NCBI GenBank assembly: GCA_945862985.1
Contig: CAMAZF010000008.1
Span: forward strand, 1-64,000
From: Bordetella parapertussis
GTDB taxonomy: Bacteria; Pseudomonadota; Gammaproteobacteria; Burkholderiales; Burkholderiaceae_A
Direction: 5' to 3'
DNA length: 64,000 bases
The position numbers and the translations under genes are program-made. The notes beneath the pieces are model-generated. The model saw only the letters and a list, made by a program, of their open reading frames with translations, ran no database searches and was not told where the DNA came from. This document shows, one piece after another, positions 4,075 to 21,000 of this stretch. Every line of letters begins with the position of its first letter. Positions within the stretch are counted from its first letter, which is position 1.

Positions 4075-5359
4075 GCCCAGCGATGACTGCGCGAGCAGCC
4101 TCTAGGTGTAAGGCATCTGTCTCGCTTGAGCTTGGGCTGGGGTGGCTTCCGAGGTGCACGATCACTAAATCGTGGTCGGGATAAACCACCAAACGCTGTC
4201 CGAACGCGCCACCCATATAGAAATGACGAGGCTGTCCGTGATGCACCCAGAACTGGGCCCGATAGCTATGGTCTGGGCGTGAGGCTTCTTTGCCACTTTT
4301 TCGGTATGCCTCGCGAGACCCACCCGCTGCGAGTGCCCGAGCGACTCGGGAGGGAATGACCTGCTGAACAGAATCTTGTTGGGTGGCCACCAGCATCGCC
4401 TGTCCGAGCTTGCCCAGGTCTGAGAGCGTCGCGTTAAAGCCGGCAAAGCTCACCTCTGTACCTGAGGGATCGAGCATCATGAAACCATCTTCCGTCGCGC
4501 CGAGCGGCTCCCACAGACGTCTCTGAATCCAGTGCGAGACCGATTGATTCGCAGCGCGTGAACAGACCCAAGCCAGGACATCCGTGGCCGGGCTTCGGTA
4601 ACGAAATGCCGTTCCTCGTGGGTCGGACTCGAGCTGCTTGAGCGAGGGCAGCATGGCCAAGATACCTGAGGGGTCTTTGGGGTCACGGAGCTGGGGAGCC
4701 CAGCCCATGGCGCCCACGTAGCGAAAGATGTCCGACTTCGGATCGGTGTAGACCTCTGTGAAGCGAACGCTGTCCGTCATGTCCGCAACCTGTTGGATGG
4801 TGGCATCGCCCCAAGCACTCTCGCTGAGTTCAGGAATGATGCTCTTCACACTCTGGTCCGGTTGGAGCTTTCCCTCCTCCATCAGCATCATGGCCATCAG
4901 ACCAACAAAGGATTTGGTCGCGGAGAAGAGGAGGTGCTGACGCTCTGGCGTCATGCCATTGAGGTAGCGCTCTTCGATGATTCGACCCTTGTGAATCACC
5001 ATCACGGCATCGGTGTGGGCCCGCTGGGCATAGTCCAGCCAGCTCAGGGGTTTTGGTTCGCCCGGAAGTGAGATCGTCAGGGCAGAAAACAGATCCGGTC
5101 GAAGGGCCTTGGGCAGCTGCTGCGGCTGACTGCTGCGTCTCACCCGTCGGGTGGGGAAGAGTTCCTCCACATGTTGAAAGGACCAGATCTTCTGCGGATA
5201 GGCTTGCCAGTTCAGGAGGTGAATTCTCGAGGCCTCATGGGGGGGAAACCCTTTCATGAGGGACTGCGGGTCTACTGATGGGGTCGGCTGGGTCGCACAA
5301 GCGACGTGTGGTGCCATCAGCAGGCAGGAGAGCAGCGACAGGCAGAAAGAAATTTTCAT
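4058..5359 (-). CDS. Exported beta-lactamase-fold serine hydrolase (class C-like esterase)
   Basis: 433 residues beginning with a Sec signal peptide (K-I-S then a hydrophobic stretch to about residue 21, A-C-A). The S-x-x-K nucleophile motif is S146-A-T-K149 and the following Y-x-S motif is near Y254-R-S256, as in the class C beta-lactamase / EstB-like family (Pfam Beta-lactamase, PF00144). Such proteins are often esterases or peptidases rather than true beta-lactamases. I place the start at the ATG directly before the signal sequence; an ATG 18 bases further upstream is also possible. Its 3' end overlaps the convergent GMC gene by 17 bases, and its start region lies only about 85 bases from the divergent ACAD gene. 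It may release an acid or alcohol from an ester or lactone in the periplasm. Confidence 0.88.
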   Translation of the reverse strand: MKISFCLSLLSCLLMAPHVACATQPTPSVDPQSLMKGFPPHEASRIHLLNWQAYPQKIWSFQHVEELFPTRRVRRSSQPQQLPKALRPDLFSALTISLPGEPKPLSWLDYAQRAHTDAVMVIHKGRIIEERYLNGMTPERQHLLFSATKSFVGLMAMMLMEEGKLQPDQSVKSIIPELSESAWGDATIQQVADMTDSVRFTEVYTDPKSDIFRYVGAMGWAPQLRDPKDPSGILAMLPSLKQLESDPRGTAFRYRSPATDVLAWVCSRAANQSVSHWIQRRLWEPLGATEDGFMMLDPSGTEVSFAGFNATLSDLGKLGQAMLVATQQDSVQQVIPSRVARALAAGGSREAYRKSGKEASRPDHSYRAQFWVHHGQPRHFYMGGAFGQRLVVYPDHDLVIVHLGSHPSPSSSETDALHLEAARAVIAGLKSTK

Positions 5360-5444
5360 TTTTCCAATGTCTGCCATGTTCTGCTCATGGACATCGTCAC
5401 TCCGGACGATGGCTTCTTTTTCACCAACGCAAACACTCGACCTT

Positions 5445-6464
5445 ATGGATTCACATTTCAGTCTTTGCCCGAGTGCTGAGCAGCAGCAGTTGGTTGAGGC
5501 AGTGGGCCGTATGCTCAGAGGCCTGGCAGATCCCATGGATGCCTCGGCCGTGCGAGAGGGCCTCATGGATCTGGGACTGTTGGGCGCTCAGCTCGATGAA
5601 CAGGACGGCGGATGGGGTCAGTCCTTGGCTACCCTTGTCCTGGTGCATGAGATGCTCGGGCTGTGGCGTACCCAGCCGTGTCTGTTGGAATGGACGGTTG
5701 TGCTGACGGATGTCTGGGGCATGCAGGGCCTGCCCATCGCACCATGCATCGATCAGGCGCTCTGGTCTGAGCGGCCCACGGTCCGAGGGGTTCTCTCTCC
5801 CCAGGGGGACCATTGGATGCTCGATGGATCGATCCGATTGTCGGGAGCGCCCAAGAGTCCCGCTGAATGGGTGGTGTGGTTTGAGGATGACCGAGCAGTG
5901 CGTCACATGACGGTGTTTTCTCCCTCCACGCTGCCGCAGTCATGCCCAAGCTTCTCCCCCTTGCAGAATGAGCTTCAAACCTGGGTGTTTCATCAGCAGA
6001 TGGTTCCGCTTCATCTGGTGAGGCCAGCCCGAGTGGTGATGCGAGCCTCATGGGCCATTCTCCGGTCGGCGGAACTGGTGGGCTGGTCCCAATCAGTACT
6101 GGACCAGTGTGTGAACTATGTTCAGTCCCGAGAGCAGTTTGGCGGGCCGATTGGCCGCTTCCAAGCCATACAACACAGCCTCGCCAAGATGCTGATCTCA
6201 GTCGAGGCTGCTCGATCCGCAGTCTACGGTGCCGCATGCCTGCTGCCGACAGCGACTTCAGAGGCCGAGCGCTGGTCGCATGGTGCACAGGCTGTCCTGG
6301 AGGCCTTGGAGGCGAGTCGCTTCTGCACCCAAGAAGCGATTCAAGTGCATGGAGGAATGGGCTATACCCGGGATTGCGGCCTGGATCGTCCCTTGCTCAC
6401 TTGCTTCCAGATTGAGGCTCAGCTCCAGCAAATGACTGACTGGGTGGGGGCGATATCGATATGA
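5445..6464 (+). CDS. Acyl-CoA dehydrogenase, short subunit lacking the usual catalytic glutamate
   Basis: About 339 residues, shorter than a standard ACAD (about 380-400). The C-terminal helical domain is clear (R-E-Q-F-G near residue 230, then Q-V-H-G-G-M-G-Y-T). The N-terminal half is divergent, and the middle beta domain is poorly conserved. I see no Y-E-G-T glutamate, and no glutamate in the alternative helix position (the stretch reads A-S-W-A-I-L-R). The start could be ATG 5445 (chosen, closest to the homologous region) or ATG 5409. It overlaps the following ACAD gene by 4 bases (ATGA), so the two are translationally coupled. That pattern matches alpha2-beta2 heteromeric ACADs of steroid and related catabolism, in which one subunit is non-catalytic. 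Subunit pairing is inferred. Confidence 0.85.
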   Translation: MDSHFSLCPSAEQQQLVEAVGRMLRGLADPMDASAVREGLMDLGLLGAQLDEQDGGWGQSLATLVLVHEMLGLWRTQPCLLEWTVVLTDVWGMQGLPIAPCIDQALWSERPTVRGVLSPQGDHWMLDGSIRLSGAPKSPAEWVVWFEDDRAVRHMTVFSPSTLPQSCPSFSPLQNELQTWVFHQQMVPLHLVRPARVVMRASWAILRSAELVGWSQSVLDQCVNYVQSREQFGGPIGRFQAIQHSLAKMLISVEAARSAVYGAACLLPTATSEAERWSHGAQAVLEALEASRFCTQEAIQVHGGMGYTRDCGLDRPLLTCFQIEAQLQQMTDWVGAISI

Positions 6465-7645
6465 ATCTTCAAGAGTCTCCAGAGCTTCTTGCTTTTAGGG
6501 CCAGCGTTCGAGACTGGATGTCAGCCCATTTCGCAGGCTCGTTTCGACAGTTGGAGGGTGTGATTGGCCCGGGCTCGAAGGGATTTGACTGCGAACTTGC
6601 GAAAGCCTGGGAGCGCAAGGTGGCTTCTGGGGGCTGGATCGGTCTTACCTGGCCGAGCGCTGTCGGCGGTAGGGCACTGCCACTTGTATATGAGATGGCT
6701 TTTCAAGAGGAATACGTTCGCTCGGGCGGACCGGGCCGCTTAGGGCACATTGGGGAACATCTGCTGGCACCAACCCTCATTGCTGAGGGGACTGAGGCTC
6801 AGCGAGCCCGATTCCTGCCTCCCATTCTTCGGGGGGAAGCGTTCTGGGCTCAGGGCTACTCGGAGCCCGGCGCCGGCTCCGATCTGGCGAGTCTTCGAAC
6901 ACGCGCTGATTGGGACCCAGATGGCCAGCAATGGCGGGTGACGGGGCAGAAGGTCTGGACCTCTTGGGCGCGTGAGTCTGACTGGGCGTTTGTGTTGGCC
7001 CGCTCGGAGCATGGCTCACAAAGGCATCGCGGCCTGGTCTTGTTGATGGTGTCCTTGCATCAGCCGGGTGTGTCGATTCGACCCATTGAACAGATCTCCG
7101 GCGCGTCGGAATTCAACGAACTTTTTCTCGATGGGGCGATTGCGCAAGCCGACGCCGCGATTGGAGCACCCGGTGACGGCTGGCGTGTGGCCATGGATCT
7201 GTTGACGCACGAGAGGGGTGCTTCCACTCTGGGGCAGCAGGCTCAATTCATCAGAGAGTTCGAACGGCTCACGTTATTCCTGAGGCGACACTCGCTTCTG
7301 CACGACGCCTCGGTTGCGCAGGAGTGGTCGCGTCATCTCGCTCGGTTAAGAACCTTGCGTCACCATGCCATTCGGGTGGCCTCAAGCCTATCGACCTCTC
7401 AGGGGCAGAGCGCTGCTTCAGCCTCAAAGTATCTCTGGTCGAACTGGCGCCGAGATGTGGGCCATTTTGCCGCACGATGTCTGGCGCGAATCCCTTCGCT
7501 AGACGCCGCAGAAAGAGCGGTGGTGGATCACCTGATCTCTCTGTGGCTCACCTCCAAGGCAGACACCATTTATGCGGGCACCAACGAGATTCAGCTGAAC
7601 CTCATTGCCCGACGAACCCTGGGATTGCCGAGGACTTCAAGCTGA
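6461..7645 (+). CDS. Acyl-CoA dehydrogenase, catalytic partner subunit
   Basis: 394 residues with all ACAD parts: N-terminal helical domain, flavin-contacting G-Y-S-E-P-G-A-G-S-D-L-A motif, middle beta domain (V-T-G-Q-K-V-W-T-S-W-A), and C-terminal helical domain. The usual E of the Y-E-G-T motif is alanine here (I-Y-A-G-T-N-E-I-Q), as in the FadE26/FadE29-like subgroup. A glutamate in L-T-H-E-R-G-A, the position used by isovaleryl-CoA dehydrogenase and the mycobacterial heteromeric enzymes, is the probable base. It introduces a 2,3-double bond into an acyl-CoA, passing electrons to ETF. The ATGA overlap with the short ACAD gene upstream argues for a joint complex. The next gene is convergent, 18 bases away. 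Confidence 0.92.
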   Translation: MNLQESPELLAFRASVRDWMSAHFAGSFRQLEGVIGPGSKGFDCELAKAWERKVASGGWIGLTWPSAVGGRALPLVYEMAFQEEYVRSGGPGRLGHIGEHLLAPTLIAEGTEAQRARFLPPILRGEAFWAQGYSEPGAGSDLASLRTRADWDPDGQQWRVTGQKVWTSWARESDWAFVLARSEHGSQRHRGLVLLMVSLHQPGVSIRPIEQISGASEFNELFLDGAIAQADAAIGAPGDGWRVAMDLLTHERGASTLGQQAQFIREFERLTLFLRRHSLLHDASVAQEWSRHLARLRTLRHHAIRVASSLSTSQGQSAASASKYLWSNWRRDVGHFAARCLARIPSLDAAERAVVDHLISLWLTSKADTIYAGTNEIQLNLIARRTLGLPRTSS

Positions 7646-7657
7646 AGCCCTCGGCGT

Positions 7658-7683
7658 TTCAAACTACCACTTGAGCGTGGTTT
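7658..7683. terminator. Hairpin at the convergent end of the ACAD operon and TonB receptor
   Basis: An inverted repeat with arms TTCAAAC(TA)CCAC and GTGGTTTGAA, a two-base bulge and a short loop spans the stop codon of the TonB receptor. It has no clear T-run on either strand, so it may slow or end transcription from both sides but is not a canonical intrinsic terminator. Confidence 0.35.
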
Positions 7684-9916
7684 GAAGCGTCACCTGACGC
7701 GGAGGCGTGTAATAGCCCTGGGTAAGGTTTCCAAACCCTGGCCCGAAGTCGATTCGGTTGGTCTGGTGCTCTTTGTCCGTGAGGTTCTTGACAGACAGTG
7801 ACACCACTCCATCGAGCCCTTTGCCAAGCGAAATCTCGCGAAGGCTCAGACGCGCATTGATGATGGCGTGGGAGCCCACTCGCGTGTTCTTGGCCACCTG
7901 AGCCATGGGATCGAAACCCGCACCCGACTCTGCGAGCTGAAAGGGATAGAGGTAGTAGCTGCTCTTGAACCCAACCTCCAGCTGACCAAAGAGCTGCCCA
8001 AAGCCGGTTTGTGCAAGTCGGCTGTCCAATGCCAGGTTGGCATTGTGCTTGGGCGCGTGGATGAAGGCTCGGTTGTTCGCGACATTCTGCCCCTTGTCAA
8101 TGAACTCGTCGTAGCGGCCATTGAGATAGCCGTACGAAAATTGAAGCTTGGATGAGGACGAGAGTTGCACCACGCCATCGACTTCAAGTCCATCGACCTT
8201 GGCCTTGCCGGCGTTTCGGATCACTGATGCGGCCGCGCCCTCTGCGGTGAAAATGGCCAGCTGCATGTCATCGATCTTATTGCTAAAGCCCGTGAGGTTC
8301 AGGAGCCCCTTGCCGTTCATGATCTTGGACTTCAACCCCACCTCAATGCTCTGTTGGGTCTCGGGCTTGAACGCGGTTTGAACTTCCTTCACATTGCTCG
8401 CGATTCCCTCGGGAGTGGGATTCACCACACCGTACTCTCCATTGAAGCCGCCGCTCTTGAAACCTTCAGCGTAGCGAGCATAAAGCTGTTGGTTTGCATT
8501 GAGCTTATAGCCCAGGGACACCATCGGAGTCGTGGCGCTGAAAGTCTCCTCTGCGGAGGTTCCAGCTGGAACCAGGGGGATGAATGGGTCGCCGATTGCT
8601 GTGTTGAATCCAAGGGTGCGGGTGATGGACTTCTTTTCCTCTGTGGACCGCAGGCCAGCGGTGAGGGTGAGGTTCGGTTGGACCTGGACATCGGCTTGCC
8701 CGTAAATGGCATTGGATTCAGTGGTGAAGCCGTAACGCGAATCAAAATTGAAGGTCCCGAAGAAATACTTCTGAGGGTTGTTGGTGAATCCCTCGTCTTC
8801 AAAGCGATAGACACCAGCCACATAGTTCACCCCGCCTCGAGAGCCTGTCCACTGCAGCTCAGCGGATGACTGGTCGTAGTCGGAGAGTCGTTGGGTATGA
8901 GCCACGAGGAGTGGGGATCCATCGAGGTCCAGCGCGTCCTCCCAGGTCATGCTTCTGCTCGACAGAATCAGCTTGATTCGGTCGGTTGCGCTCGCGGCAA
9001 GGTCAGCAGTCAGCGTATGCCCCTGAACCTTCGAGATTTCGAAGAGTTCGCCATCGACCGCTGCGGTCTTCTGGCGGGTCGAAAACACGAAGTCGGTCAG
9101 GAATGGGAGGTCAGAGCGTACGAGTTGAGAGTGGGTCGGTGTCTGGTCGACTTTGGAATAATCGAACCGATAGTCCAATGAGAAATCTTTGGTGGCCGCT
9201 AGGGTCGCAGCCAGGCGAAAGCTTGTCTCGTCTGCGCCATTGAGATCCTTGACGCTGCTCCCAGGCGCCGTCTTCACCCAGCCGTCACGCTTTTCTTGGC
9301 GAAGGCCCAAGCCCACTTTCAGTGCGCCGCTGGAGGGTAGGTCCATCGATGCCTTGAGGATTCGCTCAGAGTCTGTGCCCAGCCCTACTGTTGCCTCTGC
9401 CGCAAACTCACCCAGTGGTTTGCGCGTCACAAAGTTGATGGCTCCAGCGAGGGTGTTTCGGCCATAGAGCGTGCCTTGGGGGCCGCGTAGAGCCTCAATT
9501 CGCTCGAGGTCGAGGAGCTTAAAGATGGAGCCTTGTGTCTTCCCAATGTAAACCCCATCGACATAAATACCGACGGCGGTGTCCCAGAAGAGCGCAGGGT
9601 TCGTGGTGACCCCCCCTCTAATCGCGATCTGAGAAGCAGTCGAGTTGCCTGGCGTCTTTGACACCATGAGGTTGGGCGCTAAACCGGAGAGATCCGAGAC
9701 GTCCTCTAGTTCGCGGTTCTGAATGTCTTGTGCAGTGAGGGCCGTGACGGCAATGGGCACCTCTTGCAGGGGCTGGGCACGCTTCTGGGCGGTCACCGTA
9801 ATTTCTTGGACATTCTGGGCGATGACGCCCGTGGAGCCCAGGGTGGAAAACGCGGCCGCAATGGCCCATGCGAGAGGTTTCCGAGCGTGTGGTGTTGGGT
9901 GGCGTGTGTGCGACAT
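7664..9916 (-). CDS. TonB-dependent outer-membrane receptor
   Basis: 750 residues. A Sec signal peptide (positively charged N-terminus, hydrophobic stretch ending near G-V-I-A-Q) is followed by E-I-T-V-T-A-Q-K-R, typical of the TonB-box region of this receptor type, and by a plug domain ending in R-G-P-Q-G-T-L-Y-G-R-N-T. The rest is beta-barrel ending in K-W, an aromatic last residue as expected for Bam-inserted barrels. Receptors of this class bring compounds too large or too scarce for porins across the outer membrane using TonB energy. It is divergent from the SDR/ACAD11-like operon and faces the ACAD pair, so it probably imports the substrate of this region. The ligand cannot be read from sequence; a siderophore is not excluded. 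Confidence 0.93.
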   Translation of the reverse strand: MSHTRHPTPHARKPLAWAIAAAFSTLGSTGVIAQNVQEITVTAQKRAQPLQEVPIAVTALTAQDIQNRELEDVSDLSGLAPNLMVSKTPGNSTASQIAIRGGVTTNPALFWDTAVGIYVDGVYIGKTQGSIFKLLDLERIEALRGPQGTLYGRNTLAGAINFVTRKPLGEFAAEATVGLGTDSERILKASMDLPSSGALKVGLGLRQEKRDGWVKTAPGSSVKDLNGADETSFRLAATLAATKDFSLDYRFDYSKVDQTPTHSQLVRSDLPFLTDFVFSTRQKTAAVDGELFEISKVQGHTLTADLAASATDRIKLILSSRSMTWEDALDLDGSPLLVAHTQRLSDYDQSSAELQWTGSRGGVNYVAGVYRFEDEGFTNNPQKYFFGTFNFDSRYGFTTESNAIYGQADVQVQPNLTLTAGLRSTEEKKSITRTLGFNTAIGDPFIPLVPAGTSAEETFSATTPMVSLGYKLNANQQLYARYAEGFKSGGFNGEYGVVNPTPEGIASNVKEVQTAFKPETQQSIEVGLKSKIMNGKGLLNLTGFSNKIDDMQLAIFTAEGAAASVIRNAGKAKVDGLEVDGVVQLSSSSKLQFSYGYLNGRYDEFIDKGQNVANNRAFIHAPKHNANLALDSRLAQTGFGQLFGQLEVGFKSSYYLYPFQLAESGAGFDPMAQVAKNTRVGSHAIINARLSLREISLGKGLDGVVSLSVKNLTDKEHQTNRIDFGPGFGNLTQGYYTPPRQVTLQTTLKW

Positions 9917-10009
9917 GCTGAGTCTCCTTGTAGTGATGTCACACTAGCGTCCTGCACCGTCCGTGCATGGTCCGTTTGAACGATCTCTCGACTCATGGGG
10001 GTTAGTGCA

Positions 10010-10753
10010 ATGCAGAATCAGCAGCGTTTCTCTGGATTGACCTTTCTGGTGACTGGGGCCACTTCGGGCTTGGGCGCTCATTTCTGTCAGGCTCTGCATG
10101 CTCAGGGGGCTCGGGTTATTGGCCTGGCCCGTCGGGACTGTAGCGCTCAGCCAGGGGTAGACCGAGCCATCCAGGCAGACATTGCAGACGCCTCAGGCCT
10201 TCAGGCGGCGGTCGCTCGGGTCCTTGGATTGCCCGGGGAGGCGGATCGCATTGACGGGCTGGTGAACAATGCGGGCATTGCGATCACTGCAAGCCTTGAT
10301 CAGACCGCTCCTGAGGATGAGGCTCGGGTCCTTGCCACAAACATTTCAGGTGTGACCAACATGACGCGGGTCATGACGCCCTATCTGCGTGCACAGGGCG
10401 GGGGTGTCATGGTGAACATGGCCTCGGTGCTCGGCATACTCCCTGTCAAGCAGGTGGCGACTTACGCGGCAAGCAAAGCGGCGATTATTCAGATGACGCG
10501 TTCTGCAGCCATCGAGCTTGCGCGAGATCAGATTCGGGTGAATGCGTTGGCCCCAGGATATGTGAAGACGGAGCTGAATTCGGACGTCTTGGACGGGCCT
10601 GCCGGGGAGGCTTTGAAGAAGATGACGCCCCTGAGACGATTCGCCAGACCTGAAGAGCTAGACGCCGCACTCTTCTGTCTACTGGATCCTCAAAACAGCT
10701 ATATGACGGGGGCAGTCATGGTGGTGGATGGCGGCATGAGTGCGGGCTTGTAA
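10010..10753 (+). CDS. Short-chain dehydrogenase/reductase (SDR)
   Basis: 247 residues of classical SDR architecture. The NAD(P) motif is T-G-A-T-S-G-L-G near residue 15, N-N-A-G follows, the catalytic serine is in N-M-A-S-V-L-G, and the catalytic Y-x-x-x-K is in Y-A-A-S-K. It oxidises or reduces a hydroxyl/keto group. GTG/ATG choices exist: ATG 10010 has a GGGGG stretch 8 bases before it, while ATG 9995 has no visible ribosome-binding site, so I prefer 10010. It is the first gene of a run SDR / ACAD11-like / APH-like kinase and divergent from the TonB receptor. A role in converting a 4-hydroxy or keto group of the imported substrate is plausible but unproven. Confidence 0.92.
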   Translation: MQNQQRFSGLTFLVTGATSGLGAHFCQALHAQGARVIGLARRDCSAQPGVDRAIQADIADASGLQAAVARVLGLPGEADRIDGLVNNAGIAITASLDQTAPEDEARVLATNISGVTNMTRVMTPYLRAQGGGVMVNMASVLGILPVKQVATYAASKAAIIQMTRSAAIELARDQIRVNALAPGYVKTELNSDVLDGPAGEALKKMTPLRRFARPEELDAALFCLLDPQNSYMTGAVMVVDGGMSAGL

Positions 10754-10779: not shown

Positions 10780-11988
10780 ATGGACTTTCACGTTTCAGCC
10801 GAGCATCAGCGGCTCATGGACCAAGTCGATGCATTTGTGAACGAGAGATTGCTTCCCCTCGAGCAAGATCCAAACAGCTTTGATGCACACGAGAATGTTC
10901 GCGAGGATTTGCTTGAGACGCTGCGCAGGGAGGTCAAGTCCATGGGCCTCTTTTCCCCACAGGCGCCTCGGGCCCGAGGGGGGCTCGGCCTCACTCCGGT
11001 TGGACAGGCGCTTTTGTATGAGCGCATGAACCGCTCCATTTTTGGTCCGGTCTGCTTCAACTGTGCAGCACCCGACGATGGCAATTTAACTGTCCTTTCG
11101 AAAGTTGCTACGCCTGCTCAGCAGGACCGTTGGCTTCAGCCCCTGATCGATGGAGAGGTTCGATCTGCATTTGTCATGACGGAGCCGCACCCAGGCGGCG
11201 GCTCCGATCCGTCCATGATGCTCACGCGTGCTGAACGCCACGGAGATCGCTGGCGAGTTCAGGGCCACAAGTGGTTTATCACCGGTGCTGGTGTCGCCAG
11301 TCATTTCATCCTCATCGCCAAGACGGGTGAGGGCAGCCGAGATGGCCTGACCGCCTTTGCCTTTCACAGGGACGATCCGGGTTGGGAGATCGTTCGGCGT
11401 ATACCCATCATGGGACCAGAGGAACACGGTGGGCACTGTGAACTGAGATTCGATGGCTTGGAGATTCCTGACGACAATCGACTCATGGAGGTTGGCCAAG
11501 GCTTGAAGCTGACTCAGATCCGACTGGGGCTCGCTCGACTGACGCATTGCATGCGGTGGCTGGGTCTTGCCCAGCGCTGTCTCCAGATTGCCACGGACTA
11601 TGTGGCGGTCAGGGAGGGCTTTGGAGTGCGACTGGCCGACCGAGAGAGTGTTCAGATGCAGCTCGGCCGGGTTGCCATGGCCATTGATACGGGCCGGCTG
11701 CTGACCATGCGAGCAGCTTGGCGTTTGGAGCAAGGCGGTAAGGCGCGTCCGGATATCTCCATGGCCAAGATTCAGGTGGCCGATACCCTGCAGCTCGCCG
11801 CAGACACCGCCATTCAGCTCTGTGGTGCGCGTGGCTACAGTCGAGACACACCGCTGGAGTGGATCTATCGATATGCGCGCCAGGCGCGCCTCGTGGACGG
11901 TGCCAGCGAGGTCCACCAAATGGTGATCAGCAAGGCGGTGCAGGCGCAGGGGCAGTCCTTTTTTGCGTGGGGGCCCGGTGCAGACTGA
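10780..11988 (+). CDS. ACAD10/ACAD11-like acyl-CoA dehydrogenase-family protein
   Basis: 402 residues. Several stretches resemble the dehydrogenase domain of animal ACAD11 more than ordinary ACADs: F-N-C-A-A-P-D-D-G-N near residue 90, F-V-M-T-E-P with G-G-G-S-D, H-G-G-H-C-E-L-R-F, R-L-T-H-C-M-R-W-L-G, and V-D-G-A-S-E-V-H near the C-terminus. In ACAD10/11 and the bacterial levulinate enzymes (LvaC with the kinase LvaA), the ACAD-type protein works with an APH-fold kinase on 4-hydroxyacyl-CoA: the hydroxyl is phosphorylated and phosphate is then eliminated. The very next gene is such a kinase, overlapping by 11 bases. Family resemblance is from memory of the human sequence; function is inferred. 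Confidence 0.92.
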   Translation: MDFHVSAEHQRLMDQVDAFVNERLLPLEQDPNSFDAHENVREDLLETLRREVKSMGLFSPQAPRARGGLGLTPVGQALLYERMNRSIFGPVCFNCAAPDDGNLTVLSKVATPAQQDRWLQPLIDGEVRSAFVMTEPHPGGGSDPSMMLTRAERHGDRWRVQGHKWFITGAGVASHFILIAKTGEGSRDGLTAFAFHRDDPGWEIVRRIPIMGPEEHGGHCELRFDGLEIPDDNRLMEVGQGLKLTQIRLGLARLTHCMRWLGLAQRCLQIATDYVAVREGFGVRLADRESVQMQLGRVAMAIDTGRLLTMRAAWRLEQGGKARPDISMAKIQVADTLQLAADTAIQLCGARGYSRDTPLEWIYRYARQARLVDGASEVHQMVISKAVQAQGQSFFAWGPGAD

Positions 11989-13336
11989 CGCGCTCGTTCG
12001 TGAGCTGACACCGATCGTAGGGGCGCTCCTCAGTCAGCGTCCGGAGAGGGATCATGGGCTGGTCCTGACCGCAGCGGTGCGGATGGCGGGCGGGGCTATC
12101 AATCAGAATTTCCTTGTCGAGCTGACCGCCCCCGAGGGCGCCACACAGCAATGGGTTCTCCGACGAGGCCAGGCCAAGCCCGTGCCAGGCACGCACAGCC
12201 GCGCGACTGAGTTTAGGCTCTTTGAGTTTGCTCATCGGGCAGGCCTAGCGGTGCCAGAGCCCCTTGGCCTGCTCGAGGGGCAGGGGCAATCGGTCAGTGC
12301 ATTCAGACGCGCGAACGGCGACGCAGACCCTCGCAGCATCATGCGCTGGTTCAATACCCTGCGAGGCCAAGGGGAGCGGGCTGCAGAGCAATTTGGACAA
12401 TCCATTGCACACGCATTCGGTGAACAGCTTGGCCTGCTGCACCGAGTGAGTGCCCAGCCCGAGGCTGACCGTCAGCTCACGCCCCTGCTTGGGGAGCGTC
12501 ACGCCAACAGCCTCGATGCAGCCCTCACCGGTCTGAGGGCCAGCCTGGGACTGTTGCAGGCCCCTGCGAGCTATCTTCGATATGCCGTGGAGCAGCTGAT
12601 CGCGGATCGCCCTTCCCGCGGTGCGGTGCATCCCGCAGTGCTCTGCCATAACGACTTTCGGCTCGGTAATCTGATGATCGAACTGCCAGAGGGCGGGCAG
12701 CCGCTGGGCTCACACGCTCTGACTGCAGTGCTCGACTGGGAATTTGCCCACTGGTCAGACCCCATGGCGGACCTGGGCTGGCTGACTGCTCCCTGCTGGC
12801 GCTTCGGTGGTGCAGCAGAGGTGGCGGGTCTGGGAACCCTGAGTGCCTTTATGGACGGCTACAGGCGTGCGCATCCGCAGGATCGCTTGCCGCTGGATGA
12901 GCTTCCCTATTGGCAACGATTTGCTCAGATTCGCTGGGCTCTGATCGCCGCCCAGCAGGGGGAGCGTGCGGTACCCGGAGAGCCTGAGACGCTGGAACTC
13001 CGCATCACGGGCGCGATGGCGGCAAGCCTCGCTCAGCCAGTGGTCGAGCATTACCTCGGGCATCGGGTCCATCCTGTACCCATGCCCACGTTTCAGCCGC
13101 AGTGGGGGGCGGCCCGAGATCTTTTACAGTCGGCCGCTCAGCACCTGAGGTCTCAGATGCCTCCTGATCTGGGCGCTGGTGGGCGGTACGCCAGCCTCAT
13201 GGCCTCAAACGCCATACGACTTGCATATAACCACCTGCTTGTTCAGTCGGTTGAGCGAGATCATCCCGAGGGAAATCCCGTGGAGCTTGACCTGGCGCAA
13301 GACCTGTCTATTTGGGAGTTTCGGGGTTTCCCCTGA
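11978..13336 (+). CDS. APH-family phosphotransferase, split partner of the ACAD11-like protein
   Basis: About 452 residues. The protein-kinase-like aminoglycoside phosphotransferase fold is shown by the N-terminal A-G-G-A-I-N-Q-N-F nucleotide loop, the catalytic loop C-H-N-D-F-R-L-G-N-L (Asp and Asn of the Brenner motif present, with the usual H-G-D glycine replaced by Asn), and the metal-binding L-D-W-E-F-A-H-W-S-D-P segment. Human ACAD10/11 carry this kinase fused to the ACAD domain; here the two are separate and translationally coupled. A GTG at 11978 and a TTG at 11963 are both possible starts; GTG is chosen. Roughly 130 C-terminal residues beyond the kinase core are of unclear role. Aminoglycoside resistance is unlikely in this context. 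Confidence 0.9.
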   Translation: MQTDALVRELTPIVGALLSQRPERDHGLVLTAAVRMAGGAINQNFLVELTAPEGATQQWVLRRGQAKPVPGTHSRATEFRLFEFAHRAGLAVPEPLGLLEGQGQSVSAFRRANGDADPRSIMRWFNTLRGQGERAAEQFGQSIAHAFGEQLGLLHRVSAQPEADRQLTPLLGERHANSLDAALTGLRASLGLLQAPASYLRYAVEQLIADRPSRGAVHPAVLCHNDFRLGNLMIELPEGGQPLGSHALTAVLDWEFAHWSDPMADLGWLTAPCWRFGGAAEVAGLGTLSAFMDGYRRAHPQDRLPLDELPYWQRFAQIRWALIAAQQGERAVPGEPETLELRITGAMAASLAQPVVEHYLGHRVHPVPMPTFQPQWGAARDLLQSAAQHLRSQMPPDLGAGGRYASLMASNAIRLAYNHLLVQSVERDHPEGNPVELDLAQDLSIWEFRGFP

Positions 13337-13384: not shown

Positions 13385-14161
13385 ATGTCGCAAGCACACG
13401 ATCTGGTCATTGAGACGCGCGGACTCACCAAGGAATTCCTGGGGTTTGTTGCGGTCAACGATGTGAACCTGAAGGTTCGTCGCCACTCCATTCACGCCAT
13501 CATCGGGCCCAATGGCGCCGGCAAAAGCACTTGTTTCAATCTCATCACCAAGTTTCACCCGCCCACCAAAGGCCAGATCCTTTTTAACGGGGTCGACATC
13601 ACAGGTCATTCCCCTTCACAGATCGCACGAGAGGGCGTGGTGCGCTCTTTTCAGATCTCGGCTGTTTTCCCGCACCTCACGGCGCTGGAGAATGTTCGCA
13701 TCGGCCTTCAGCGCACCCTGGGCACCACGTTTCATTTCTGGAAGAGCGACAAGACGCTCGATGTGCTGAATGATCGCGCCCTCGAGGCCTTGGACCAGGT
13801 CGGGCTTCAGGAGTACGCACATGAGCTTGCGGTGAATCTCCCCTACGGACGAAAGAGGGCGCTGGAGATCGCGACCACGGTCGCCATGAATCCTGAGGTG
13901 ATGCTGCTTGATGAGCCCACGCAGGGCATGGGTCACGAAGATGTCGACCGCGTCACCGAACTCATCGCCAAGGTGGCCAAGGGGCGCACGGTGATCATGG
14001 TGGAGCACAACATGCGGGTGGTCTCGAACATCGCCCACACCATTTCCGTGCTTCAGCGCGGGGAGGTGATTGCAGAAGGCGATTACGCCACCGTGTCCTC
14101 TAATCCCCAAGTGATGGAAGCCTACATGGGCGCCAGCGACACCGAGCTTCAAGGACACTGA
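13385..14161 (+). CDS. livG: Branched-chain amino acid-type ABC transporter ATP-binding protein LivG
   Basis: 258 residues with Walker A G-P-N-G-A-G-K-S, an ABC signature degenerated to L-P-Y-G-R-K-R-A-L-E, Walker B V-M-L-L-D-E-P, and the switch histidine in V-E-H-N. It is one of the two ATPases powering a LivHM permease. It opens a tight run livG-livF-binding protein-livH-livM with gaps of 3-33 bases. A TATAAC box lies about 10 bases before the start codon, which would allow transcription to begin close to the ATG. HAAT-family importers of this sort carry amino acids but also aromatic and aliphatic carboxylates, which fits the catabolic genes upstream. Confidence 0.95.
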   Translation: MSQAHDLVIETRGLTKEFLGFVAVNDVNLKVRRHSIHAIIGPNGAGKSTCFNLITKFHPPTKGQILFNGVDITGHSPSQIAREGVVRSFQISAVFPHLTALENVRIGLQRTLGTTFHFWKSDKTLDVLNDRALEALDQVGLQEYAHELAVNLPYGRKRALEIATTVAMNPEVMLLDEPTQGMGHEDVDRVTELIAKVAKGRTVIMVEHNMRVVSNIAHTISVLQRGEVIAEGDYATVSSNPQVMEAYMGASDTELQGH

Positions 14162-14167
14162 CCCTTC

Positions 14168-14875
14168 ATGAGCATTCCTGTTCTTGCGATTGAAAACCTC
14201 AACGCCTGGTATGGCGAGTCGCATGTCCTTCATGGAATCGATTTGACGGTTCAGCAGGGCGAGGTGGTCTGCTTGCTTGGCCGAAATGGGGCCGGTCGCA
14301 CCTCGACGCTCAGATCCATTTTGGGTCTCACGGGTCAGCGGACCGGCAGTATTCGCGTGAACGGCCGAGAGGTCATTGGCATGCCCACGCATGAGGTTGC
14401 ACAGCTTGGCATTGGATACTGCCCAGAAGAGCGCGGAATTTTTGCGAGCCTCACCTGCGAGCAGAACCTGATGCTCCCACCCAAGGTCGGGGACGGCGTG
14501 GCCCTGACGCTGGATGAGATCTATTCCATGTTCCCCAACCTCCTGGAGCGTCGTAACAGCCCCGGAGGAAGGCTCTCGGGGGGGGAACAGCAGATGCTTG
14601 CCATTGCGCGCATTCTCAGGACGGGCGCCAACTTATTGCTTTTGGATGAGATCACGGAGGGCCTGGCCCCAGTCATCGTTCAGAAGCTTGGACAGGTGGT
14701 GCAAACCCTGCGGGATAAGGGTTTCACGATTGTGCTGGTGGAGCAGAACTTTCGATTTGCCTCGAAGCTCGCTGATCGTAATTACGTCATCGAGCATGGG
14801 CAGGTCGTGAAGACCGTCGCGAGAGATGAACTCGAGACGAACCAAGAAGAACTCAAATCTTTGCTTGGTGTTTAG
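14168..14875 (+). CDS. livF: Branched-chain amino acid-type ABC transporter ATP-binding protein LivF, Arg in Walker A
   Basis: 235 residues, the second ATPase of the importer. The signature is L-S-G-G-E-Q-Q, the Walker B region L-L-L-L-D-E-I-T-E-G-L-A-P, and the H-loop position carries Gln (V-E-Q-N), which is usual for LivF. The Walker A reads G-R-N-G-A-G-R-T-S: the lysine that binds the ATP phosphates is replaced by arginine (codon CGC at about 14299). I recall the same replacement in other proteobacterial LivF proteins, so it may be a lineage trait rather than a defect. With His absent from the H-loop as well, this subunit may hydrolyse ATP weakly and LivG may do most of the work. Confidence 0.94.
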   Translation: MSIPVLAIENLNAWYGESHVLHGIDLTVQQGEVVCLLGRNGAGRTSTLRSILGLTGQRTGSIRVNGREVIGMPTHEVAQLGIGYCPEERGIFASLTCEQNLMLPPKVGDGVALTLDEIYSMFPNLLERRNSPGGRLSGGEQQMLAIARILRTGANLLLLDEITEGLAPVIVQKLGQVVQTLRDKGFTIVLVEQNFRFASKLADRNYVIEHGQVVKTVARDELETNQEELKSLLGV

Positions 14876-14908
14876 GCGTACATGACCCCTCAATTTTTGG
14901 AGACCGCT

Positions 14909-16123
14909 ATGACCCGTAAGACCCCAATCGCTGCTCTGGTTGCTGGCCTCTTGGCCGCTGCAGGCGCTGCGGCTCAGGCACAGACCGTGTCTGACAATGA
15001 AGTCCGTATTGGTGTGCTCACCGACCTCTCAGGCATTTATTCCGCTATTGAGGGCCCAGGTGCTGTGCTGGCCGCCCAGATGGCCGTTAAAGATTTTGGT
15101 GGCAAGGTTCTGGGCAAGAACATTGTGATCACCTCTGCCGATACCCAGTCCAAAGCAGACCTCTCAAGCTCAAAAGCGCGTGAGATGTTCGAGAAGGACA
15201 AGGTCGACATGATTGTCGGAAACGTCTCCACAGCGTCGGCTCTGGCCGCTATGGAAGTCTCCGAGCAGTTCAAGCGCGTGGCGATTGTGACGGGTGCAGC
15301 CTCACTGCCCATCACCAATGAGAAGTGCACGCCCTACAGCATTCACTACGTGTACGACACCTACGCGCTCTCCCGCGGCACCGGCAAGGCCGTGGTCGAT
15401 ACGGGCAAAAAGACCTGGTTCTTCGTGACGGCAGACTATGCATTTGGCCACACCCTCGAGCGTGACACCTCGGAAGTGGTGAATGCCTCTGGCGGTAAGG
15501 TCATGGGATCAGTCAAGCACCCCATCAACACCACCGATTTCTCGTCCTTCTTGGCCCAGGCACAAGCCTCCAAGGCGGATGTGATTGGCCTGGCCAACGC
15601 GGGCGGCGACACCATCGGCTCGGTCAAGCAGGCCGCTGAGCTGGGCATCATGGGTTCAAAGCAGACGGTTGTGCCCCTTCTGATGTTTATTTCCGACGTT
15701 CAGGCCTTGGGCCTTAAGCAGACTGCTGGAATGAACTTCACCGTGGGTTGGTACTGGGACTACAACGACAGCAACCGCAAGTTCGCTGAGCGTTTCATGA
15801 AGGAGTTCAAGGGCAAGGCACCCACTTCAGTCCAGGCAGGCGTGTACTCGTCCACCATGCAGTATCTGAAGGCGGTCGAGAACACCAAGACCGACAACGC
15901 AGATGCGGTGATGAAGCGTCTGAAGTCGATCGAGATCGACGATGGTCTCTTCAAGGGCAAGATCCGCGCAGACGGTAAGTTTGAGCACGACATGTTCCTG
16001 CTTCAGGTCAAGGCTCCAAAGGAGTCCAAGGGACCCAACGATGTGGCGAAGGTGGCGAAAGTGATTGCAGCGAAAGATGCAACGCTTCCTCTCTCTCAGT
16101 CCAAGTGCAAGCTGGTGAAGTAA
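14909..16123 (+). CDS. Periplasmic substrate-binding protein of the Liv-type ABC transporter
   Basis: 404 residues. ATG 14909 is chosen because GGAG lies 6 bases upstream and a Sec signal peptide (T-R-K, hydrophobic stretch, cleavage near A-Q-A-Q) follows directly; an ATG 27 bases earlier adds an unlikely extension. The mature part is a type I periplasmic binding protein (Peripla_BP_6), starting V-R-I-G-V-L-T-D-L-S-G. It lies between the ATPase and permease genes. Within this family, forms ending with a segment like H-D-M-F-L-L-Q-V-K-A-P-K-E-S are frequent in Burkholderiales and often linked to aromatic or other carboxylate uptake. The ligand is unknown. Confidence 0.95.
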   Translation: MTRKTPIAALVAGLLAAAGAAAQAQTVSDNEVRIGVLTDLSGIYSAIEGPGAVLAAQMAVKDFGGKVLGKNIVITSADTQSKADLSSSKAREMFEKDKVDMIVGNVSTASALAAMEVSEQFKRVAIVTGAASLPITNEKCTPYSIHYVYDTYALSRGTGKAVVDTGKKTWFFVTADYAFGHTLERDTSEVVNASGGKVMGSVKHPINTTDFSSFLAQAQASKADVIGLANAGGDTIGSVKQAAELGIMGSKQTVVPLLMFISDVQALGLKQTAGMNFTVGWYWDYNDSNRKFAERFMKEFKGKAPTSVQAGVYSSTMQYLKAVENTKTDNADAVMKRLKSIEIDDGLFKGKIRADGKFEHDMFLLQVKAPKESKGPNDVAKVAKVIAAKDATLPLSQSKCKLVK

Positions 16124-16126
16124 GGC

Positions 16127-17041
16127 ATGTTTGAGCTGCTCGGAATCACTCCCCAAGCCCTGACAGCCCAACTCTTGATTGGGCTGATCAATGGCTCGTT
16201 CTATGCCCTCTTGAGTCTGGGCTTGGCGGTGATTTTCGGGTTGCTCAACGTGATTAACTTCACACATGGCGCTCAGTACATGCTGGGCGCCATGTTTGCT
16301 TGGATTGGTCTGACACAACTCGGGGGCTGGATTGGCATGCCCGAGTTTCAGCTGAATTATTTCGTGGCGCTGATTCTTGCGCCGCTGCTGGTTGGGGCGA
16401 TGAGCATCGTCATCGAAAAGACCATGCTGAAGCGCCTCTACCACCTAGACCACCTTTACGGACTCTTGCTGACCTTCGGGCTGGCGCTGGTGATAGAGGG
16501 ATTGTTCCGACACTGGTACGGAGCACTGGGTAACAGCTATGAAGTGCCCGAGGTGCTGACCGGCGGCCTCAGAGCTGCGGGCATCTACCTGCCCTACTAC
16601 CGCCTCTGGGTGGTGGCTTTGGCCCTCATGGTTTGCTTTGCGACCTGGTACTTCATTGAGAGAACCAAGCTGGGCAGTCTGCTGCGCGCAGGAACGGAGA
16701 ACCCCCGCTTGCTGCAGGCCCTGGGGGTGAACGTCCCGCTCATCATCACGCTCACCTATGGCGCAGGCTGTGCGTTGGCCGCCTTTGCTGGCGTGATGGC
16801 AGCCCCCATTTATCAGGTGACGGCAGTGATGGGCTCGAATCTCATCATTGTGGTGTTCGCGGTGGTGGTCATTGGGGGTATGGGGTCCATCGCAGGCTCC
16901 ATCCTGACTGGGCTTGGGCTTGGCGTGGTCGAGGGCCTGACCAAAGTCTTCTACCCCCAGGCCTCGTCCGTCTCGATTTTCGTCATCATGATCATCGTGC
17001 TGCTCATCAAGCCCGCCGGTCTCTTCGGAAAAGTGCGTTAA
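16127..17041 (+). CDS. livH: Branched-chain amino acid-type ABC transporter permease LivH
   Basis: 304 residues, strongly hydrophobic with about eight membrane segments, and the characteristic N-G-S-F-Y-A-L-L-S-L-G-L-A start and G-L-L-N-V-I-N-F-T-H-G loop of LivH. It forms the inner-membrane channel with LivM. Starts 3 bases after the binding-protein gene, and its stop is followed by AAGGAG, which serves livM. Confidence 0.95.
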   Translation: MFELLGITPQALTAQLLIGLINGSFYALLSLGLAVIFGLLNVINFTHGAQYMLGAMFAWIGLTQLGGWIGMPEFQLNYFVALILAPLLVGAMSIVIEKTMLKRLYHLDHLYGLLLTFGLALVIEGLFRHWYGALGNSYEVPEVLTGGLRAAGIYLPYYRLWVVALALMVCFATWYFIERTKLGSLLRAGTENPRLLQALGVNVPLIITLTYGAGCALAAFAGVMAAPIYQVTAVMGSNLIIVVFAVVVIGGMGSIAGSILTGLGLGVVEGLTKVFYPQASSVSIFVIMIIVLLIKPAGLFGKVR

Positions 17042-17049
17042 GGAGACCC

Positions 17050-17985
17050 ATGATGCAACTCACCACCTTCCAGAAGATCTCCCTGGTCATTTTTCTGTTG
17101 TTGCTGATCGTTCCTTTTCAGAACGTGGTCTACGACCTATTCATGATGAAGGTCTTTTGCTTTGCGATATTCGCGGCCTCACTCAATCTTCTGCTGGGGT
17201 ATGTGGGGCTTCTCTCTTTTGGCCATGCGGCCTTCTTTGGGTCTGCGGCGTACGTGACGGCCCATGCCATGAAGGAATGGGGCGTGACCCCCGAGATTGG
17301 TCTTTTGCTTGGCGTGGCCACGTCGGCGGCCATTGGCTATGTTTTTGGTGCTTTGGCCATTCGCAGGCAGGGAATTTACTTCGCCATGATCACGCTGGCG
17401 TTGGCCCAGGTGATCTACTTTCTGGCGACCCAACTCCCCTTTACGAATGGCGAGGACGGCATTCAGGGCGTACCCAGAGGTGAATTTCTGGGCTTGATCG
17501 ATCTGAGCAGCTCCACGGCCATGTATCTCTTCAGCCTGGGCGTGTTCGCGCTGGCCTTCGTGCTGATCATTCGCATTGTGAACTCGCCCTTCGGACAGGT
17601 TCTGAAGTCGATTCGCGAGAACGAACCTCGGGCCATATCGCTGGGTTACGACGTCGATCGCTATAAATTGATTGCCTTTACGCTCTCAGCCGCCCTGGCT
17701 GGGCTGGGTGGCGCCCTCAAGAGCCTGGTGTTGCAGCTCGCGTCTCTGGGCGATGTGTTCTGGCACATGTCTGGAGAGGCGGTGCTCATGACCATTCTTG
17801 GCGGCATTGGCACCCTCTGGGGGCCGATTGCCGGCGCGGCCATCATTGTGAACCTTCAGAATTATCTCGCCAATCTCGGCGGATGGAGCACCATCGCGAC
17901 GGGGGCGATCTTTGTGATCTGCGTCCTGGCTTTCCGAAAGGGCGTGGTGGGCGAGCTTGCGGATCGGCTTAAGATCAAGCTCTAG
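17050..17985 (+). CDS. livM: Branched-chain amino acid-type ABC transporter permease LivM
   Basis: 311 residues with about eight to nine membrane segments. The hallmark segments are A-A-S-L-N-L-L-L-G-Y-V-G-L-L-S-F-G-H-A-A-F-F-G and the cytoplasmic coupling loop S-I-R-E-N-E-P-R-A-I-S-L-G-Y. AAGGAG precedes two adjacent ATG codons, either of which could start the protein. Last gene of the transporter operon; the next gene begins 94 bases later behind its own leader. Confidence 0.95.
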   Translation: MMQLTTFQKISLVIFLLLLIVPFQNVVYDLFMMKVFCFAIFAASLNLLLGYVGLLSFGHAAFFGSAAYVTAHAMKEWGVTPEIGLLLGVATSAAIGYVFGALAIRRQGIYFAMITLALAQVIYFLATQLPFTNGEDGIQGVPRGEFLGLIDLSSSTAMYLFSLGVFALAFVLIIRIVNSPFGQVLKSIRENEPRAISLGYDVDRYKLIAFTLSAALAGLGGALKSLVLQLASLGDVFWHMSGEAVLMTILGGIGTLWGPIAGAAIIVNLQNYLANLGGWSTIATGAIFVICVLAFRKGVVGELADRLKIKL

Positions 17986-18058: not shown

Positions 18059-18079
18059 CACGACACAAAGAGGATGTCC

Positions 18080-21000
18080 ATGTCACAGTCCCCACTATTT
18101 GTCCGCTCCGCCCTGGCGCTCGCCATCGCGGCCAGTCTCTCACCTCTCGCCATCGCCCAGAACACGTCCTCCTCCATTGGCGGATTGGTCTCTGATGGAT
18201 CCGGCAAAGCCATTGCTGGCGCGACCGTGGTCGTGACCCACGCACCCTCGGGCACCCGAAGCGTGACCTTGTCTGATGCCACTGGCCGCTTCTTGGCGAC
18301 TGGTCTTCGTGTGGGCGGTCCCTATACCGTGACGGCGACCAAGGGTGGTCAGACCGCAAAGGAAGACAATCTCGTTCTCAAGCTCGCAGAGCCTCTCGAA
18401 CTGGCCCTGACCATTGGTGCTGCCCCGGTCCAGACCGTGACTGTGCTTGGACAGAAGGGCTTCACGGATCCCCGTTCCAACCGCTTCGGCGCGGGCACCA
18501 GCTTCAGTCAGGCGGATCTTGAGAACCTGCCGGGCTTTGGCCGTGACCTCCAAGAGGTGGCTCGCCTAGACCCCCGCGTGAGTCAAGTGGACAAAGGCAC
18601 GGACAAGATCTCAGCCCTGGGTCAAAACTTCCGCTACAACACCATCACCATCGACGGCGTGGGCGTGTCCGACCCCTTCGGACTCAGCTCCAATGGATTG
18701 CCCACCCTCAAGCAGCCCATTCCTTTTGATGCAATTGATTCCGTTCAGGTGAACGTCTCGAACTTTGACGTCACCCAGTTCGGGTATTCGGGCGCCAACA
18801 TCAACGCAGTCACCAAGTCCGGTACGAACAAGCTCTCTGGTAGCGTCTACTACGCCCAGCAGGATGAGCGCATGGCCGGCGATCGCGTGACCAACCTGAG
18901 CACCAACGCCACAGCCAAGCAGGCCGATTTCAAGGTCACCAACACGGGCTTTACGCTGGGTGGCCCCATCATCAAGGACAAGCTCTTCTTTTTTGTGAAT
19001 GCCGAGAAGTTCAAAGACTCACGCGCAGGTGCGCCCCAGTACGGCCCTGTGGGATCCAACCTGATCAACATTGGCATCACCCAGAGCGACATTGAGAGAA
19101 TCCAGTCGATTTCCAAGACCACCTATGGCTTTGAGGCTGGAAACCTGGTGGCTTCCCAGGGGGAGCTGATCTCTGATTCGGTGATGGGCAAGATTGACTG
19201 GAACATCAACCAGGACCATCGCCTGACCCTCACCTACAGCGACACCGACTCCAACGAGCCGCTCTATTACGGCATGGGGTCGAGCTCTCTGAGTCTCTCC
19301 TCTTACTGGACTGCTGAGTCCAAGAAGTTCAAGACCAACACGGTGCAGGTCTACTCCGACTGGTCTGACAACTTCTCAACCGAGGTAAAGCTTGGAAACC
19401 GGACCTATGACAAGGTCTTCGCGAACAACTCTGCGGCTCCCACCGTTCAGATTCAGTTCGAAGGCTCTGCGCCGGCTGGTTCCGGCCTGACCTCCTCTTC
19501 GAACCGCTCTGTGTACCTGGGCACCGAACAGTACCGTCATTACAACATCCTGAAGACGGACACCCAAGAAATGTTTTTCGCAGGCACCTATCTCATGGGT
19601 GCACATGAGCTCAAGTTCGGTGGAACCCGTGAGACCAATGATGTCTTCAATGCCTTTTTGCCTCAGTCCAATGGTGTGTATCGGTTTGAGTGTGATGAAA
19701 GATTCAGTTACACCAGCATCACCGGTACCGTGAACTGTCGCGTGGGTGAGCAAGCTGCCCTGGCAGCACTTGAGAACTTCGAGAAGGGTCGCCCCAGCTA
19801 CTTCAATATTCGTGTCCCTCAGGCCGGACTGACCTTGGACCAGGGCGCAGCTGAGTTTTCATATGAAAACACGGGGGTCTTCCTGCAAGACACCTGGCGG
19901 GTGAACCGTGATCTCACCATCCTGGCCGGTATGCGGATGGACACCCAGACCACGGACGATCGTCCCCTCAAGAGTGAGGCGGGCGCCCAGGCGCTTGTGG
20001 CTGGAAATGCTGCAACCAACACGGCCCAGTCGGGCGGGTTCGGGCGCGACAACTCCGCCATCAACGACGAAATGACGCTGGTCCAGCCCCGCTTTGCCTT
20101 TACCTGGAACCTTCGCGATGCCATGCAGAGCCGTGTTCGTGGTGGCTACGGTCTGTTCAAGGGCGGTGCGCCCACGGTTTGGTTCTCGAACCCCTACTCC
20201 AACACGGGCGTGCAGACGGCTCTGACGACCTGCACCGGATCGAGTGGTTCGGCTTGCCCCGTAGATGGCCTCGACGTGACCATGGACCCACGGAATCAGC
20301 CGGCTGTTGCAGGGGCCGCACCCATCCCCGCGATCGACTTCAATGACGGTGGCCTTGAGACCCCCTCCATCTGGAAGGGCAATCTTGCCTATGAGGCCAC
20401 GCTCAAGGAGGGCTACGTGGTGTCGGCCGAGTACATCCGCACGGACACCAACGCAGACATTTACTTTGAAAACCTGAACCTGGGCCCCGCAACTCGCACA
20501 GGCCCTGACGGTCGTCAGATGTTCTTCAACGATGCTGGCTACAAGGACACCAGCTATGCAGTGGCATCGAATGGCGCGGTGAGCACCATCTCCTCCGCAG
20601 GCGTACAGAATAAATTCCTGCGCAACCGTTCCTTCGACAATGTCATGCTCACGAAGAAGACAGACAAGGGCTATGGCAACACGGTCACACTGTCTTTGGC
20701 CAAGCCTGCTGCAGGAATGGGCTTTGGCTGGAACGCAGCCTACACCTACAGCGATGTGAAGTCGGTGCACGATGGTAGCTCCTCGATTGCGTATTCCAAC
20801 TGGCGTTACTTCCCCCGTCTGCAGGCCAACGAGGCGGAGCTTGCTCGCTCACGCTATGAGATTCGTAATCGCGTGAACCTCGGTGCCACCTACAAGACGA
20901 AGCTCTTCGGGAACCTGACCACCAGCTTCGGTATCTTTGCTGAGCATCGCACGGGCTACCCCTACAGCTGGACCTTCTACAACGATGCGAACGGTGATGG

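Follow-up and report, generated by a model that had tools for sequence, protein, structure and literature searches.

Contig 8 of the genome of a small freshwater bacterium (2.17 Mb in 60 contigs, 91.5% complete) was analysed over 64,000 nucleotides (the window), and the following genes and features were located:

272 to 2455, + strand: FadJ/FadB-like enoyl-CoA hydratase/3-hydroxyacyl-CoA dehydrogenase
9995 to 10753, + strand: LvaD-type SDR, likely a 4-oxoacyl-CoA reductase (Pfam adh_short_C2/adh_short; SDR tree)
10010, + strand: alternative ATG start of the SDR
10780 to 11988, + strand: acyl-CoA dehydrogenase (ACAD), third clade of the ACAD11/LvaC superclade, likely a 4-phosphoacyl-CoA phosphate eliminase
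11521 to 11556, + strand: ACAD codons for R248, R253 and H256-C-M-R259, corresponding to R626, R631 and H634-C-M-R637 of ACAD11 (8v3u alignment)
11896 to 11898, + strand: ACAD codon for D373, corresponding to the catalytic D753 of ACAD11 (alignment to 8v3u)
11978 to 13336, + strand: APH-fold kinase of the LvaA lineage, with a GTG start and an 11-base overlap with the ACAD gene
12647 to 12742, + strand: kinase catalytic motifs H224-N-D226-F-R-L-G-N231 and D253-W-E255
13070 to 13336, + strand: C-terminal tail of the kinase, a predicted shortened LvaB/DUF6285-like domain (best match 13112-13240)
13385 to 14161, + strand: LivG, ABC ATPase (Pfam ABC_tran and BCA_ABC_TP_C)
14168 to 14875, + strand: LivF, ABC ATPase (position and translation; conserved in relatives)
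14882 to 16123, + strand: Liv-type periplasmic binding protein (Peripla_BP_6; nearest solved chain 3i09, 395.7 bits)
16127 to 17041, + strand: LivH permease (position and translation; conserved in relatives)
17050 to 17985, + strand: LivM permease (position and translation; conserved in relatives)

The kinase reading frame was called automatically from a TTG codon at 11963, and when it is opened from the GTG at 11978, also in frame, it overlaps the ACAD gene by 11 bases, as had been reported in the initial annotation. An SDR gene upstream of the pair and a Liv-type importer downstream of it had also been described, and both were found, the importer being a complete LivGFKHM system. The genes from SDR to LivM are all on the + strand and are separated by 26, −11, 48, 6, 6, 3 and 8 bases, a spacing consistent with a single operon. 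A scan of the locus for promoters and terminators gave results no better than those for shuffled sequences, and an Rfam search returned no match.

The FadJ/FadB-like gene at 272 to 2455 could possibly provide a downstream beta-oxidation step for the module. It is adjoined at 2458-5566 by genes for a choline-dehydrogenase-type GMC oxidoreductase and, on the opposite strand, a hydrolase with a beta-lactamase fold. Two neighbouring ACAD genes at 5256-7645 likely encode a heteromeric ACAD pair: in the first, the N-terminal domain is matched weakly and the middle domain not at all, and the second is PimC-like. As the listed start of the first overlaps the opposite-strand gene at 4058-5566, its true start is probably later. 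Outer-membrane receptors lie on both sides of the module, with a TonB-dependent receptor gene (7664-9916) divergent from the SDR and a gene for a CarboxypepD_reg/beta-barrel protein (18074-21472) downstream of LivM. Elsewhere in the genome, a steroid-type catabolic island on contig 15 (L185, L186) includes a 3-ketosteroid-dehydrogenase-like gene, paired ACADs, a CoA transferase, a thiolase and several SDRs and CoA ligases.

ACAD10 and ACAD11 phosphorylate 4-hydroxyacyl-CoAs and then eliminate the phosphate, and they share with LvaC the residues R626, the HCMR motif H634-R637 and Asp753, the last of which is Glu in other ACADs (PMC12440821, PMC11342911). Bacterial LvaA/LvaC orthologues can stand in for the ACAD10 domains in vitro (PMC11342911). 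Three ACAD domains were identified by Pfam in the window ACAD, and its best solved relatives were mouse and human ACAD11 (8v3u, 208.7 bits; 8v3v; 2wbi), which scored above all other ACADs. The full ACAD10/11-LvaC residue set was found in the alignment (R248, H256-C-M-R259 and D373), such that Asp373 takes the position of the catalytic Glu of ordinary ACADs and the phosphate clamp formed by R and HCMR is complete. The ACAD11-like stretches noted in the initial annotation were borne out by the 8v3u alignment, in which R626, H634-C-M-R637 and D753 all have equivalents. Fourteen matching places were found in the genome, and the residue set was absent from every paralogous ACAD that was aligned. 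As this set has been described as unique to ACAD10/11 and LvaC and is absent from the other ACADs of the genome that were checked, phosphorylation and elimination of a 4-hydroxyl by the pair, also proposed previously, is well supported at the level of sequence, and its hallmarks are present.

In a maximum-likelihood tree, the window ACAD joined ACAD11 and LvaC in one superclade (support 97/92) but fell within a third clade (25 rows, 100/99), apart from the ACAD11 (100/100) and LvaC (99/98) clades; the root was set for display only and does not fix the sister order among the three clades. When further genes of the third clade were checked for patterns, the R...HCMR motif was found in 21/21 and the strict Asp-region pattern in 15/21, and one of the six genes outside the strict pattern (L154) is cut by a contig end. 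The window ACAD shares just 41% identity with the plasmid LvaC and 34% with ACAD11, and no report of a tested member of the third clade was found in the literature, so the substrate of this ACAD may differ from those of LvaC and ACAD11.

The kinase carries an APH domain (Pfam, 78 bits). A PDB search with the single sequence gave weak kinase matches only, and the family profile matched, among others, the ACAD11 chain over its kinase part (E 5.6e-10). H224, D226, N231 and D253-W-E255 are invariant across seven family kinases; the ACAD11 kinase residues D220/N225 have been described (PMC12440821). In a tree of 39 kinases, which did not include the mouse ACAD11 kinase domain itself, the window family was found within the LvaA lineage (99/98), apart from kinases encoded next to ACAD11-type ACADs. 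The description of the pair as a split ACAD10/ACAD11 was thus not upheld, being ruled out by the kinase and ACAD trees together: the kinase groups with LvaA, and the ACAD lies in a clade apart from both ACAD11 and LvaC. An antibiotic kinase was ruled out by lineage and gene neighbourhood, and, judged on sequence, the nearest kin of the two proteins are neither ordinary ACADs nor antibiotic kinases. The stem of the window kinase lineage is long (1.34 changes per site), so the specificity of the kinase may have shifted.

The presence of DUF6285 tracks lineage in the kinase tree, as kinases of the LvaA lineage have DUF6285 adjacent or fused. Third-clade ACADs were found paired with either kinase lineage (L148-L150 and L160-L162 versus L138-L146), suggesting that partners have been swapped, and DUF6285 was absent from the stretches read around those with ACAD11-type kinases (L148-L150, L160-L162).

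The only description of LvaB, the 12 kDa partner of LvaA, is as a hypothetical LvaA-interacting protein, and both genes are needed for growth on levulinate (PMC6692424). Genes of the LvaB type carry the name DUF6285 in annotated records, and a literature search gave no text match for this family name. No stand-alone DUF6285 gene was present in this genome or in the family genomes searched. The last ~90 residues of the kinase are conserved in relatives, and this tail, which sits directly after the kinase where kin encode LvaB, aligns with the first ~50 of ~120 LvaB positions only. An LvaB HMM was built from twelve LvaB-type sequences, none of them from the window family, with the alignment widened to include the first helix. 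When 8892 ORFs were searched, it recovered 8/8 tails with E values of 1.8e-6 to 2.4e-4, the best unrelated ORF being at 0.74; eight is the independent count after allowing for loci that repeat the same DNA, and even of these eight, L027 and L028 belong to one genome and hardly differ where they overlap. The true tails scored 23.7-32.0 bits, against no more than 14.0 in 8000 shuffled tails, and hhalign of the tail profile with LvaB gave 95% (P 2.7e-8). A narrower comparison with only the Pfam-defined part of DUF6285 was weak (hhalign 68%; E 1.9e-5 to 2e-3 for the eight-tail set), and Pfam returned no hit for the tail alone at E up to 10. In a predicted model of the kinase (mean pLDDT 77), the tail includes three helices of low to fair confidence, and a structure search with this model returned APH-fold kinases and was uninformative for the tail.

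An independent case of fusion is encoded in another genome (G168; L152), where a kinase of the LvaA lineage and a complete DUF6285 domain share one reading frame of 477 aa. This is the only true case among the apparent full kinase-DUF6285 fusions, the kinase and DUF6285 being in different frames in L140, L143, L145, L146 and L159. On the basis of the profile comparisons, the kinase tail is a shortened LvaB domain, such that kinase and helper are fused in one chain. A fusion that has retained just ~50 initial positions indicates which part of LvaB matters, and the fused kinase offers a single-chain enzyme for the study of LvaB function.

The SDR-ACAD-kinase module was found in seven genomes of the family, and the importer lies beside it in five of these, with two intervening genes, one of them for an aldehyde dehydrogenase, in G001. 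One carrier is LSUCC0115, a cultured coastal isolate of the MWH-UniPo clade (L040; PMC6952679), which makes an experimental test practical. Within the family, the ACADs share 82-86% identity and the kinases only 43-49%. More widely, a third-clade ACAD was detected in 21 of 399 genomes of the order at the cut-off used, and plasmid copies were found in Azospirillum, Paracoccus, Chelatococcus and roseobacters. G013 and G023 carry two copies each. The third clade predicts phosphate-eliminating ACADs on many replicons that are now annotated merely as acyl-CoA dehydrogenase. Among the third-clade ACADs for which the flanking DNA was read, most have a kinase gene as neighbour. The SDR, ACAD and kinase genes are followed in the same order by a separate DUF6285 gene in Paroceanicella, Azospirillum and Thermus, which belong to other classes and phyla. 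As SDR-ACAD-kinase-Liv recurs in relatives and SDR-ACAD-kinase-DUF6285 in these other classes and phyla, the gene arrangement represents more than chance. In Thermus and Azospirillum (L123, L158) DUF6285 is followed by a gene of the histidine-phosphatase family, and such a gene has also been reported close to lva in P. citronellolis (PMC6692424).

A close homologue of the binding protein was found in 6/7 family genomes with the pair versus 1/18 without it (Fisher p = 2.6e-4), though the set consists of 25 related genomes, several of them incomplete, and the p value overstates their independence. Genetic linkage of importer and pair is thereby supported. The one genome with an importer and no pair (G011) encodes a FadE-type ACAD and an acyl-CoA ligase beside that importer, and this too suggests a carboxylic acid. 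A different Liv system adjoins the module in L138 and L141. The group to which the binding protein belongs carries an annotation of branched-chain amino-acid binding. Through the linked importer, the natural substrate can be approached directly.

The SDRs of 20 clusters, including LvaD, formed one clade (100/99) apart from the SDR paralogues of the genome, and the SDR of the Thermus cluster was the sole one outside it. As the window SDR groups with LvaD, which reduces levulinyl-CoA to 4-hydroxyvaleryl-CoA (PMC6692424), 4-oxo acids are plausible substrates, and they appear as likely as 4-hydroxy acids for the module. The gamma-lactones proposed in the initial annotation are a guess. An acyl-CoA ligase gene adjoins the module in several relatives, with two of the cluster type in G015, one on each side. 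In the genome studied here, an LvaE-like ligase is encoded on contig 44, unlinked to the module and next to enoyl-CoA hydratase and ETF genes. Its identity is 67% to the ligase linked to the cluster in a relative, and 52% to the acyl-CoA synthetase from an annotated lva operon.

It is likely, with a probability of roughly 0.77, that the locus is an Lva-type module that brings 4-oxo and 4-hydroxy acids into beta-oxidation by the chemistry of the Lva and ACAD10/11 pathways. The predicted steps follow the roles of LvaD, LvaAB and LvaC in levulinate catabolism (PMC6692424). The Liv-type importer would take up a carboxylic acid, and an acyl-CoA ligase, for which the LvaE-like enzyme of contig 44 is the candidate, would form the CoA ester. 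For keto-acid substrates, the LvaD-type SDR would convert 4-oxoacyl-CoA to 4-hydroxyacyl-CoA. By analogy with LvaAB, the kinase would then phosphorylate the 4-hydroxyl, its own LvaB-like tail replacing a separate LvaB subunit. The ACAD, using FAD, Asp373 and the R248/H256/R259 phosphate clamp as expected from ACAD11 and LvaC, would eliminate the phosphate to give 2-enoyl-CoA, the breakdown of which FadJ-like enzymes could complete. A tentative extension, held with well under even confidence, is that the third clade, which spans Alpha- and Betaproteobacteria, represents a distinct phosphate eliminator with a natural substrate that is neither levulinate nor a straight-chain 4-hydroxy acid, and that the family kinase has absorbed a shortened LvaB. 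If so, the fusion shows which part of LvaB is needed.

The generic names given by Pfam and NCBIfam, ACAD and, for the kinase, APH, would suit an ordinary ACAD performing alpha,beta-dehydrogenation beside an unrelated APH-type kinase. However, this is highly improbable given the Asp in place of the catalytic Glu, the complete phosphate clamp, and the recurrence of the kinase neighbour by most third-clade ACADs with surroundings read. The tail could similarly be an unrelated helical appendage with no LvaB remnant, as Pfam gave no hit for it, about 50 positions align and model confidence is low to fair for most of its length. Against this, 8/8 tails outscore all unrelated ORFs and all shuffles, their location right after the kinase matches that of the LvaB gene of kin, and L152 is an independent full fusion, so an unrelated origin appears improbable.

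The Liv importer could alternatively be a general amino-acid transporter that happens to lie beside the module. The annotation of the binding-protein group favours this, whereas the co-occurrence with the pair (p = 2.6e-4), the acyl-CoA ligase and FadE-type ACAD genes in the exceptional G011 operon, and the adjacency of a different Liv system in L138 and L141 do not, and the idea is considered doubtful while retaining some weight. It is also rather unlikely, though conceivable, that the same chemistry is applied to a bulkier acid with a hydroxy or oxo group at the gamma position, whether branched, cyclic, terpenoid or derived from a steroid, and not to straight-chain 4-hydroxy acids, with the third clade serving another substrate class. 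The separate and well-supported ACAD clade, the fast evolution of the kinase, the steroid-type island on contig 15 and a 25-hydroxysteroid kinase near the top of the fold search are in its favour. However, the steroid-dehydrogenase-like gene is missing from the five other module-bearing genomes searched, indicating that steroids are not the shared substrate, and the fold match, at 15-17% identity, reflects the common APH fold. A steroid substrate is therefore not favoured, as the module occurs in genomes that lack this gene.

The proposed Lva-type module resembles several known systems in part. Like the lva operon (LvaABCD) of Pseudomonas putida, with an annotated P. aeruginosa plasmid copy (L119), it includes a kinase of the same lineage, an LvaB-type helper, an LvaD-type SDR in the cluster and the same ACAD active-site set, with an LvaE-like ligase (52%) elsewhere in the genome. 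However, the kinase and shortened helper form one protein whereas LvaB is separate in lva, the ACAD is 41% identical and outside the LvaC clade proper, no LvaE-type CoA ligase is linked, and a Liv-type ABC importer is present in place of the DUF485/symporter pair. The fused kinase-ACAD proteins ACAD10/ACAD11 of animals share the equivalents of R626, H634-C-M-R637 and D753 and, presumably, the reaction. Here, in contrast, kinase and ACAD are encoded by two ORFs overlapping by 11 bases, the kinase is across a 99/98 branch from those accompanying ACAD11-type ACADs, and the ACAD is 34% identical and outside the ACAD11 clade.

The 25-hydroxysteroid kinase of Sterolibacterium denitrificans shares the APH fold and the logic of phosphorylation followed by elimination but acts on a tertiary alcohol of free steroids (PMC8449060), with 15-17% identity in the fold match. 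The SDR-ACAD-APH-DUF6285 clusters of Paroceanicella profunda (L121) and Azospirillum sp. B510 (L158), for which no characterisation was found in the literature, have the same gene order and ACAD clade, with ACADs 65-68% identical, but differ in that DUF6285 is a separate full-length gene and no Liv importer is adjacent. As the window ACAD is not in the LvaC clade, LvaB is not separate and no ligase is linked, the locus represents a variant of Lva and not the lva operon proper. The chemistry is already known from Pseudomonas and animals, and what differs here is the kinase with its absorbed, shortened helper and the third-clade ACAD.
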